Of a stretch of 64,000 bases of DNA, positions 31,224 to 44,367 are shown in pieces. The notes under the pieces were generated by a model. That model was given only the letters and a program-made list of their open reading frames with translations, was not told the DNA's origin and searched no databases. Numbering within the stretch: the stretch's first letter is position 1; each line of letters begins with the position of its first letter. A program made the position numbers and the translations under genes. Source of the stretch: Bifidobacterium vansinderenii (lineage in GTDB: Bacteria; Actinomycetota; Actinomycetes; Actinomycetales; Bifidobacteriaceae); contig NZ_NEWD01000005.1 in NCBI RefSeq assembly GCF_002234915.1, positions 1-64,000 of the forward strand, in the 5' to 3' direction.

Positions 31224-31278
31224 ATACGAAAGGGGTCTGGCATCGCAGTACGACTGTGACGCCAGACCCCTTTCGTAT
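31224..31278 (+). terminator. Terminator of pgm
   Basis: An 18-bp perfect stem (arms 31224-31241 and 31261-31278, ATACGAAAGGGGTCTGGC) with a 19-base loop, directly after pgm. Confidence 0.8.
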
Positions 31279-31326: not shown

Positions 31327-31440
31327 GATTACGTTCCGTCATCTCAACAGAACGAAACGTAATCGAAGAGCGTTGTTCGGTTACGAACCGTTTCGCGGCG
31401 TCAACGGAACGTAATCCGAAAGACCGCCTTTCCGTTCCGT
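31327..31440. repeat. 52-bp dyad array A (about 2.2 units)
   Basis: Copies of GATTACGTTCCGT and its reverse complement alternate: forward at 31327, reverse at 31352, forward at 31379, reverse at 31404 and a partial forward near 31428. Starts recur every 52 bp on each strand and dyad centres fall every 26 bp (31345.5, 31371.5). A weaker copy of the forward arm lies at 31285. The array lies between the converging pgm and HtaA-like genes. The same motif forms array B at 44108-44367. Confidence 0.85.
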
Positions 31441-41975: not shown

Positions 41976-42785
41976 TGGTGTTCCTTTCTCATTCCCCAGT
42001 GCCCGCTTGCGAAGCGTCGGCATCGTCGCAATGGTGTCATTGCGACGACGTGCATCCGTCGTTTCCGGTCATGGATCGGTGATCCCCGACCGTCAGATAA
42101 GACCTGATGTCCGTCGTCCGATGATTGACATGAGACATTCGGAGCCACGCTTCCACGTCTGTGAAATCCACGAATCGTGGTCGCACGGCAGATCCGAGGT
42201 GTTCCATGTCGGGCGGGCATCGGCGTCAGCGCTCCGACAGGACGATCCCGGCATGCATCAACCATCGACCCGTCGTCGGCCGTCACCGACTTCGTGTTTT
42301 TTCGTTTCGGCCATCGGTTCGCGCCGTCGTGGGGCACGATCCGCTGGTCCAAGCGTCGGTTCAGTCGCCGGCTGGTGCCGTCGGCTCGGTCGACCGCGAT
42401 GATCATGACGATCCTGCGGGATATTCCAACACTGCATGTTCCACGACCGTCGCCTCGACTGCTCAATGTGTGTATGACAGGCGCGGTTCGTGAAGAACAC
42501 CCGCACGATACGACGAGAAAATTCCCATTCTCAAGTCTTGATTTTCTCAACGGGTTTCCGTAGTCACGCGCGCGATATCAAGAATCATTTCCAAAATCAA
42601 TACCTGTGACAAACCTCACATTCACAGCCTTCTCCGTCACTCGCCCGTCTGTCCGGTACACGCTTCGGGCTTCTCGCTAGCCAATCCCACCCTCATTCGT
42701 TCCCATTCCATCCGTATACTCTCATCCTTCGCCCATTCCGCCACTCATAATCTCCCTCGCATCGCATCCGTTCTCGATCGTTACG
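41976..42785. other. Intergenic region before the large HtaA gene
   Basis: About 800 bp with no convincing gene. It contains a perfect hairpin at 42024-42047 (CGTCGCAATG/CATTGCGACG, 4-base loop) in the leader of the HtaA gene, a candidate -10 TTATCT on the minus strand near 42098, the dyads GGATC-GGT-GATCC (42073-42085) and CCACGAATCGTGG (42168-42180). I found no obvious DtxR/IdeR-type or Fur-type box. Short frames here look like chance. Confidence 0.5.
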
Positions 42786-42993
42786 GCCTGTCTGCCACAT
42801 GCATGTGTCAAACAGGCACCGAAGCTCACTGTTCGGTGCTTATGTGACGCATGCATACGTCCCACAAACACCGAATCCCCCTCTTCGGGGCCTATTCGAC
42901 GCATACGTGCGGCAAATAGACCACTAACGCACAATTTCAATGCTTATCCGACGCACGCATGCAACGGATGAGCAACAAACACAACGGCTCGGC
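42786..42993. repeat. 52-bp dyad array C (4 units)
   Basis: Four units start at 42786, 42838, 42890 and 42942, exactly 52 bp apart with no gaps. Each has a 32-base hairpin (9-bp arms around a 14-base centre containing GCATGC-like or CGCATAC cores). Arms differ between units but remain largely complementary, as in GCTTATCCG/CGGATGAGC for unit 4. A 20-base second dyad follows (ACCGAA...TTCGGT in unit 1, ACCGAA...TTCGGG in unit 2). Dyad centres fall every 26 bp. It ends about 65 bp before the AbiEi/Vsr-like gene. Confidence 0.85.
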
Positions 42994-43057
42994 CACGTTC
43001 GACCACATTGTCCCCCAGCCCTTGCCACCCATCACCATATCGCCTTAGCGTTTGCAC

Positions 43058-44011
43058 ATGAGAACACATGCATCTACCGAACAGCTCCTCAACGAAGCCG
43101 AGCACGGGCAGCGCTGCGCCATCGGCACCACCGACTTGCAACGCAAAGCCCTCCGTCGGCGAACACAGGCAGCACTTTTGATTTCCCCGTACCGTAACCT
43201 CTATGCACGGGTCGAGTATTGGAACACTCTGACGCCAATACAACGACACCTGCACATCGCACGAGCACTGTCCCTCATGCACCCCAACTGGATATTCGCC
43301 GGACTCACCGCCGCATGCGCATACGATCTTGATCATTCCTACGCCCTCCATCACAGCATGATCATCTGCATCGCCAGCGCATATTCGCCGTCACCGCATC
43401 AATCCCGTCAGCTGAAGCGCATATACATGCGCAACGTCAATCACACACGAACGTCGTCAATCCCCGTCACCGATATCCATCGCACGCTCATCGATTGCGC
43501 GACGCTGTTCCCCTTCGCCGACGCGCTGCCGATGTTCGATTCCGCGGCGCGCAAGGGGGTGTCGATAGTGGGTCTTCCCGATCGTTGCCGCACGCTTGGC
43601 ATCGACAGCGCGAACGTCACGGCACTCTGCACGTACACGGATCCGTTGAGCGAGAACGGCGGTGAGTCGTTCGCCCGCGCGACGATCATCCAGCTGGGGT
43701 TCGTCGTGCCGCGACTGCAGAGACCGTTCGCGAATCCCGCGAATCCAAGCGCACCGCTGCGCGCGGATTTCACATGGGAGCTGCCCGGCGGCGTCATCAT
43801 CGTGGCGGAGTTCGACGGCATGGGCAAGTACGTGATGACCGACACGAAACGCAGCAGCATCCAGGCGAAGGTGCACGCCGAACGCGAGCGCGAGGATCAG
43901 CTGAAATCGCAGGGCGTGACCACGATCGTCCGGTTCGAGTTCGAGGATCTCACCCATCCGGAACGATTGGAACGCAAGCTGCTGCAGGCGGGCGTACCAA
44001 AGCGGCAATGA
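43058..44011 (+). CDS. AbiEi-like protein with C-terminal Vsr/DUF559-type nuclease-like fold
   Basis: A 317-residue soluble protein. The N-terminal half resembles AbiEi-type antitoxin/regulator proteins (YRNLYARVEYWNTL, then HPNWIFAGLTAACAYDL). The C-terminal part has ADFTWELPGGVIIVAEFDGMGKY, then EREDQLKSQGVTTIVRFEFEDL, matching the PD-(D/E)XK/Vsr-like DUF559 pattern with Asp, Glu and Lys in the expected places. No AbiEii toxin partner is next to it. It is bracketed by 52-bp dyad arrays C and B. The start at 43058 has no strong ribosome-binding site. Such genes are common and of unproven function in Bifidobacterium. Confidence 0.75.
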   Translation: MRTHASTEQLLNEAEHGQRCAIGTTDLQRKALRRRTQAALLISPYRNLYARVEYWNTLTPIQRHLHIARALSLMHPNWIFAGLTAACAYDLDHSYALHHSMIICIASAYSPSPHQSRQLKRIYMRNVNHTRTSSIPVTDIHRTLIDCATLFPFADALPMFDSAARKGVSIVGLPDRCRTLGIDSANVTALCTYTDPLSENGGESFARATIIQLGFVVPRLQRPFANPANPSAPLRADFTWELPGGVIIVAEFDGMGKYVMTDTKRSSIQAKVHAEREREDQLKSQGVTTIVRFEFEDLTHPERLERKLLQAGVPKRQ

Positions 44012-44107
44012 ACGTCACCTGAACCTCTCATGCGCTGCGCAAAGAGTGTCAATACCGGATCCCGTGCGCCAATCACGTTCGTATCCTCACGAAACACTCA
44101 GCATATG

Positions 44108-44367
44108 CGTACGATACATTTCCCGATCGCGACGGAACGTAACCGAAAGCACCGATCCCGTTACGTTCCGTGACCGACCAGCACCGTAACGTAATCGGAG
44201 GAAACGCTACGATTACGTTTGGTCAGTATCATGGTACGGAACGTAATCGAAACCTGCAGCATGATTACGTTCCGTTGCAGACCCGCAGCGGAACGTAATC
44301 CAAAGCCAATCCTTGATTACGATACGTTCGCGCATGGCAACGGAATCGACCGTTACTCATGATTACA
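44108..44367. repeat. 52-bp dyad array B (5 units)
   Basis: Five contiguous 52-bp units begin at 44108, 44160, 44212, 44264 and 44316. Each contains GATTACGTTCCGT (or a variant) and, 25 bp later, ACGGAACGTAATC. Exact copies are at 44264 (forward) and 44237 (reverse). The 12-base loop and 14-base spacer vary freely. Dyad centres fall every 26 bp. It lies after the AbiEi/Vsr-like gene and before the RNase H gene, with no coding frame. Confidence 0.9.

Follow-up and report, generated by a model that had tools for sequence, protein, structure and literature searches.

Centromere-like arrays such as sopC of the F plasmid and parS consist of repeated dyads near the gene of their binding protein, with further sites elsewhere. 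The REP, BIME and REPIN repeats that go with RAYT are extragenic, alternating and palindromic, occur as several families per genome and form tandem clusters; RAYT genes are themselves flanked by such repeats (PMC3733652, PMC3116915), as in the REPtron, a dedicated gene flanked by dispersed repeats. Monomers of S. agalactiae AbiEi bind two 23-bp inverted repeats separated by a 3-bp gap, i.e., in a 26-bp register (PMC7319586). TIGR arrays combine two different 8-12 nt repeats and 9-nt spacers with a Nop-domain protein (PMC12045711).

We analyzed a stretch of 64,000 nucleotides from Bifidobacterium vansinderenii (the window), in which an array of alternating inverted repeats, array B (type 1, 44107-44352, no strand assigned, half-site TTCGRKTACGTTYCGTTG), lies 3' of a conserved nuclease-like gene (43052-44011, forward strand) and 5' of rnhA. 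Array B and its relatives share with REP-type repeats the extragenic position, the alternating palindromic make-up, the tandem clustering, the presence of several families per genome and the dedicated gene flanked by repeats. The gene, however, is no RAYT, stem pairing is not kept, the period is a strict 51-52 bp and individual orthologous arrays are conserved. Operators of AbiEi and MenA-type antitoxins (abiE of S. agalactiae, a type IV toxin-antitoxin, and Rv2827c of M. tuberculosis) are similar in that a possibly, if weakly, AbiEi-like protein accompanies inverted half-sites of ~22-23 bp in a 26-bp register, a likeness of geometry only and not of compared sequences. In contrast to these operators, the rows described here reach 20 half-sites and occur chromosome-wide, mostly near gene ends, and the protein has a predicted C-terminal Vsr-like nuclease fold with no nucleotidyltransferase toxin gene adjoining; a DUF1814 toxin gene was not found beside it. 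A nuclease-like gene next to tandem repeats that alternate and enclose intervals also recalls TIGR-Tas, but here a single inverted motif recurs with a 52-bp period, the intervals drift and the protein is not of the Nop/Tas type; no Nop/Tas gene was found among the array neighbors, the others of which are housekeeping genes. Unlike sopC and parS, many arrays are spread over one chromosome, and the protein is unrelated. None of these families fits gene and arrays: RAYT, a DUF1814 toxin and a Nop protein were each sought and none was found. By analogy, they are best read as a functional analogue of REP-RAYT without a RAYT. With moderate confidence we regard them as a kind apart from the REPtron and the AbiEi operator; the confidence is moderate since gene and arrays are so far linked by association. 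An earlier description of such a gene with such arrays was not found in the open-access literature searched, which is no proof of absence.

Array B and its half-site

Array B consists of the 13-bp arm GATTACGTTCCGT alternating with its own reverse complement. Reverse arms are located at 44132, 44184, 44236 and 44288 and forward arms at 44159, 44211, 44263 and 44315 (13-mers, 1-based), so that like arms are exactly 52 bp apart, neighboring arms are alternately 27 and 25 bp apart and dyads follow each other every 26 bp. The exact spacing of like arms had been recognized in the initial annotation, in which every position was one base too high. Of the five units proposed there, four are good; the fifth is degenerate, as are the arms at either end (forward 44107, reverse 44340). 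The regularity is real. Within the window, the arm motif has 30 matches with up to three mismatches versus 15.5 ± 3.9 in shuffled sequence, and none of 100 shuffles reached 30. Genome-wide, it occurs at 33 sites with at most one mismatch (reversed control motif, 0) and in 47 full dyads per strand (control, 0). A motif-blind detector, which knows only dyads 26 bp apart and found no chain in 410 kb of locally shuffled sequence, gave array B (five dyads) a score of 56 as compared to a maximum of 38 for shuffled windows. Tandem Repeats Finder did not detect array B because its intervals differ, and an Rfam search of the window returned a tRNA as its sole match and none on the array.

The sequence logo of 208 half-sites reads TTCG-R-K-TACG-T-T-Y-C-G-T-T towards the dyad center and holds ~21 bits over 26 positions. 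Intervals had been described as varying freely, which is true for the ~8 bp of each linker that carry no information; the remainder is patterned. The 14-base linkers start with GAA and end with TTC, and the 12-base interval contains the weak dyad TGCGGA/TCCGCA. The real half-site is therefore ~22 bp long and the arm is its core, with arrays composed mostly of whole forward-12-reverse units. Comparison of 26 orthologous units from B. vansinderenii and B. callimiconis revealed that the core TACG.T is identical at 257 of 260 positions (99%), versus 522 of 676 (77%) for intervals and linkers (12-base interval, 78%; linker, 77%; P about 1e-20). These units were picked by overall similarity, a choice from which the contrast between positions cannot arise. 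Retention of the core next to drifting intervals thus indicates selection for half-sites at each array. Unit numbers differ between species by whole 52-bp units.

Dispersed arrays, motif classes and the flanking gene

Similarity and pattern searches identified ~14 such arrays in the genome of B. vansinderenii (G000) and 11 in B. callimiconis (G002), while B. leontopitheci has at least 48 with up to 20 arms. One array appears twice in B. vansinderenii, at the ends of two contigs and in opposing orientations (G000:C17:380-631 and G000:C27:1-225); the assembly has probably split a single locus, and the count may hence be one too high. When 84,980 species genomes were scanned, with the genome of the window left out, the dyad was numerous in B. 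leontopitheci and B. callimiconis alone; matches elsewhere were isolated and chance-like. Among 189 genomes of the family Bifidobacteriaceae, type 1 dyads numbered 30 in B. vansinderenii, 18 in B. callimiconis, 134 in B. leontopitheci and one each in G007 and G177, all of which encode an ortholog of the clade described below, and 0 in the remaining genomes. No DNA match was found in phages, plasmids yielded one match at chance level and viral contigs contained two isolated dyads. The motif search in other Bifidobacterium genomes that had been put forward with the first description of array B has thus revealed a dispersed, strictly phased family in some species. In nearly all its arrays, arms alternate every 25 and 27 bp with a period of 51-52 bp. 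Forward-to-reverse spacing in B. leontopitheci is 25 bp (178 cases) or 26 bp (23 cases) and reverse-to-forward spacing 27 bp (122 cases) or 26 bp (100 cases); every chained array of B. vansinderenii and B. callimiconis follows the 25/27 pattern, except for a few out-of-phase fragments (L060, L061).

All 54 arrays examined are extragenic, in agreement with the initial annotation, which had placed array B outside coding frames; none overlaps a called gene (gene calls from a simple codon model, as for all placement counts). Arrays lie between convergent genes in 20 of 54 cases (37%), as compared to roughly 30 of 213 (~14%) other long gaps, and between divergent genes in eight. Between genes of the same direction, 18 arrays are nearer to the stop codon and seven nearer to the next start. 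Their neighbors are ordinary genes such as pgm, rnhA and genes for a glycosyltransferase and an aminotransferase. The second type 1 array of the window, array A (31327-31416, no strand assigned), is located between convergent genes and has four good arms and a degenerate fifth at 31428; its orthologous place in B. leontopitheci is occupied by a longer type 1 array. A strong inverted repeat (AAAGGGGTCTGG...CCAGACCCCTTT, 31229-31277) that separates the stop codon of pgm from array A is a probable terminator.

The motif-blind detector uncovered further arms, namely type 2 (TTCGCTGCGGGTTYGTC), type 3 (TTCGGTGCTTATTCGACGCATG) and others, in arrays whose dyad spectrum peaks at 26.0 bp. Types 1-3 have the frame TTCG.T.....T.CG in common, placed equally far from the dyad center in each. 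A type 3 array with 26-bp dyad spacing (42775-42982, no strand assigned) precedes the nuclease-like gene by ~70 bp, and the place of array B is taken by type 2 arrays in B. callimiconis and G007. Across the clade species, about ten motif classes were distinguished in 14 genomes under a constant 26-bp dyad architecture: type 1 in B. vansinderenii, B. callimiconis and B. leontopitheci; type 2 in B. callimiconis and G007; type 3 in B. vansinderenii; GGTTCCCRTYCGTTG (GGTTCCC...) in G004 and G001; GGTTATAACGCA in G008 and G005; GTACGTTTTTGC in G177 and G185; and GCGTCCGGTATTACACA, GTCGCATCCGTTTACG, GGTNCGTTCTGTAA and CATACGGTTTCACCGG in G170, G176, G219 and G164, respectively. Sister proteins have the same motif (G004/G001, G008/G005 and G177/G185). 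Counted in ten genomes, the motifs of G004/G001 and G008/G005 are dispersed in no genome outside the group G001/G004/G005/G008, and the reversed controls had no matches. In G004, the array regions C1:100700-101111 and C1:230697-231108 are identical and inverted at a distance of 130 kb, which suggests either that a large region was duplicated in inverted orientation or that the assembly is in error. Mixed arrays of G007 (L165:8311-8680, L164:8194-8430, L166:7638-7850) carry type-3-like half-sites on one strand and type 2 half-sites on the other, joined per dyad, suggestive of two binders or relaxed recognition. Dyad arrays of 25-26 bp outside the TTCG.T frame also occur, with half-sites TTCTCTGCCAC and CGTTCCGTACCA (L163:1856-2046 in G007 and L182:9187-9327 in G008).

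The initial annotation captured the pattern of array B and missed its genome-wide spread, the other arm sequences of the same architecture and the link to a gene. Its statement that no effector gene is visible was wrong, as the nuclease-like gene (ATG at 43058, 317-319 aa) ends 96 bp upstream of array B. Homologs were detected in 118 of the 189 Bifidobacteriaceae genomes. Fifteen of them, including the gene of the window, form one clade in the maximum-likelihood tree (support 100/99), and 14 of these 15 have an array of 26-bp dyads within 1 kb, whereas none of the 36 homologs examined from elsewhere in the tree does (Fisher 1e-11, shared descent ignored). No array was detected at the remaining clade member, G128. 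An association of arrays with the nuclease-like family in general was rejected, as only this one clade is array-flanked. Arrays are present on both sides of the gene in B. vansinderenii, B. callimiconis, B. leontopitheci, G007, G004, G001, G008 and G005. In the window, the type 3 array 5' and array B 3' separate the gene from both neighbors, i.e., upstream, on the other strand, the gene for a long protein with repeat domains and a surface-like appearance (judged by eye) and downstream the RNase H gene rnhA (PF00075). No arrays were found in the 240 kb sampled from each of G003 and G006, a sample too thin to speak for gene-less genomes at large.

The C-terminal half of the protein, modeled with pLDDT mostly between 70 and 90, resembles a Vsr/homing-endonuclease-like nuclease fold. 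The model matches the catalytic domain of I-Bth0305I (Z 8.3, 92 residues, rmsd 2.7), followed by NGO0050 (Z 7.3), Vsr (6.0) and TnsA (5.3); these Z values, including 8.3, are borderline singly and agree on one fold group. Residues E205, D239, E253, D255 and K259 are invariant in 14 homologs. Residues 1-140 are modeled with a pLDDT under 50, and the N-terminus is weakly similar to the AbiEi winged-helix domain as judged from profile matches (Pfam PF13338, below cut-off with E 0.0035 and in no ortholog but that of B. leontopitheci; PADLOC AbiEi profile, E 0.017, weak). For the protein flanking array B, Pfam gave no match up to an E of 1, and a sequence search against solved structures found nothing. 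No relatives were found in PHROGs, NCBIfam, phages or viral contigs, and one distant relative was found in plasmids. Asp28 is the sole column that is fixed and separates TACGTT users, which is unconvincing as a specificity determinant because 46 of 2002 possible groupings also have such a column.

Candidate binding protein and competing explanations

That the arrays are protein-binding-like sites, and neither RNA stems nor guide arrays, is supported by sequence patterns, namely the conserved half-sites of ~21 bits, their rigid phasing, the retention of cores in orthologous units and the lack of compensatory change; of the roles offered in the initial annotation, the multi-site protein-binding array thus fits best. 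It is attractive to propose that they are cooperative binding sites for the predicted DNA-binding protein encoded by the flanking gene, a proposal to which we give even weight for and against. Briefly, each monomer would read one 22-23 bp half-site, and inverted half-sites 26 bp apart would permit head-to-head and tail-to-tail contacts and thereby an uninterrupted nucleoprotein array. Among findings from other systems, the 26-bp register of AbiEi hints most strongly that an AbiEi-like domain might read the half-sites. The same protein would also fill the arrays scattered over other intergenic regions, most of which adjoin the 3' end of a gene or lie between convergent genes, and could regulate its own gene via the array upstream of it. 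If its specificity shifted, arrays of a new type would replace the old ones while the geometry is kept. As a guess, the cell might gain autoregulation together with a marking or structuring of gene ends. The nuclease domain, if active, may drive array turnover or be held in check on arrays. Some genomes have two or three array types and one clade gene (types 3 and 1 in B. vansinderenii, types 1 and 2 in B. callimiconis); the protein would therefore have to recognize more than one motif, unless part of the arrays are remnants. Type 1 is also common to B. leontopitheci and B. vansinderenii, though proteins nearer to that of the latter use other motifs. The wider proposal, that a vertically kept nuclease-like protein and its own dispersed 26-bp-register arrays co-evolve in specificity and motif as an undescribed two-part chromosomal system of bifidobacteria, is tentative and falls slightly short of an even chance.

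Alternatively, the arrays could be REP-like (semi-)selfish DNA that is spread or amplified in trans by the nuclease-like protein they flank, as has been suggested of RAYT transposases and REPINs; the gene and its flanking arrays would then correspond to a REPtron. Their extragenic, dispersed placement and enrichment between convergent genes, the repeats on either side of the gene as with RAYT genes, a nuclease fold related to homing endonuclease and TnsA, the large expansion in B. leontopitheci and the differences in array presence and type at the same place between species are all consistent with this idea. Tandem growth within B. leontopitheci arrays also fits; it was recent and involved two units at once, as duplicated stretches are offset by 103 nt (L077:7025-7412, 314 nt at 90% identity; L068:414-831, 331 nt at 84% identity). 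However, the RAYT hypothesis itself was rejected, as the Y1 transposase (PF01797) is missing in B. vansinderenii and B. callimiconis and present in five control genomes. Convincing recent copying from array to array was not found in B. leontopitheci, where matches between arrays are at or below ~87% identity over 70 nt and nearly identical copies at separate positions are lacking. Neither common array ends nor target duplications were seen, and individual orthologous arrays have retained their cores, a sign of selection acting on each of them rather than of dead copies decaying. We consider selfish spread unlikely, if the most serious competitor. Binding of another, unlinked nucleoid or regulatory protein, with the gene merely embedded in an inherited array-rich locus, would account for several array types per genome, for arrays adjoining ordinary genes and for the array on the rnhA side, which is kept with a changed type in B. 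vansinderenii, B. callimiconis and G007. It is less probable still, as arrays track the gene clade and not homologs generally, and the gene is array-flanked in the distant species G001, G004 and G005, where other arrays are rare (0 in the ~438 kb sampled).

Explanations at the level of RNA fare worse. Tandem hairpins acting as 3' UTR stabilizers or terminators would agree with the bias towards gene 3' ends, and every dyad could fold. Yet 70 arm changes in the 26 orthologous units are one-sided and five two-sided, with pairing kept in one of the five, and resemblance between the arms of a unit is at the shuffled level (z -0.3), although position 2 covaries (z 3.7). Eight of the 54 arrays lie between divergent genes, the G007 dyads join two different half-site types and Rfam gave no match. 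Hairpins, one of the roles initially considered, are therefore disfavored and very improbable. The early speculation about a TIGR-type array with intervals as guide RNAs drew on the alternation of inverted repeats with variable intervals, to which the fixed length of the intervals and the adjoining nuclease-like gene can now be added. It has next to no probability, as the geometry is wrong (inverted copies of one sequence, period 52), the adjoining protein matches no Pfam family, a Nop/Tas gene is missing nearby and intervals diverge between species by substitution at the rate of the linkers, and are not swapped.

If gene and arrays belong together as binder and sites, they would constitute a system of repeats and protein that has no relation to RAYT or Tas, in which one chromosome can carry as many as 50 arrays and the recognition motif is replaced rapidly. 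The ~10 natural protein-motif pairs could then serve to read a DNA-recognition code, and would offer a testable case of a binder and its many dispersed sites changing specificity together. Such a system would also account for otherwise puzzling intergenic repeats of bifidobacteria.

The first ~48 bases of rnhA recur upstream of rnhA, followed by a hairpin-rich insert, in L188 (G001), L187 (G008) and L191 (G006). This repeat looks like a decoy start, an attenuator or an insertion with duplication.
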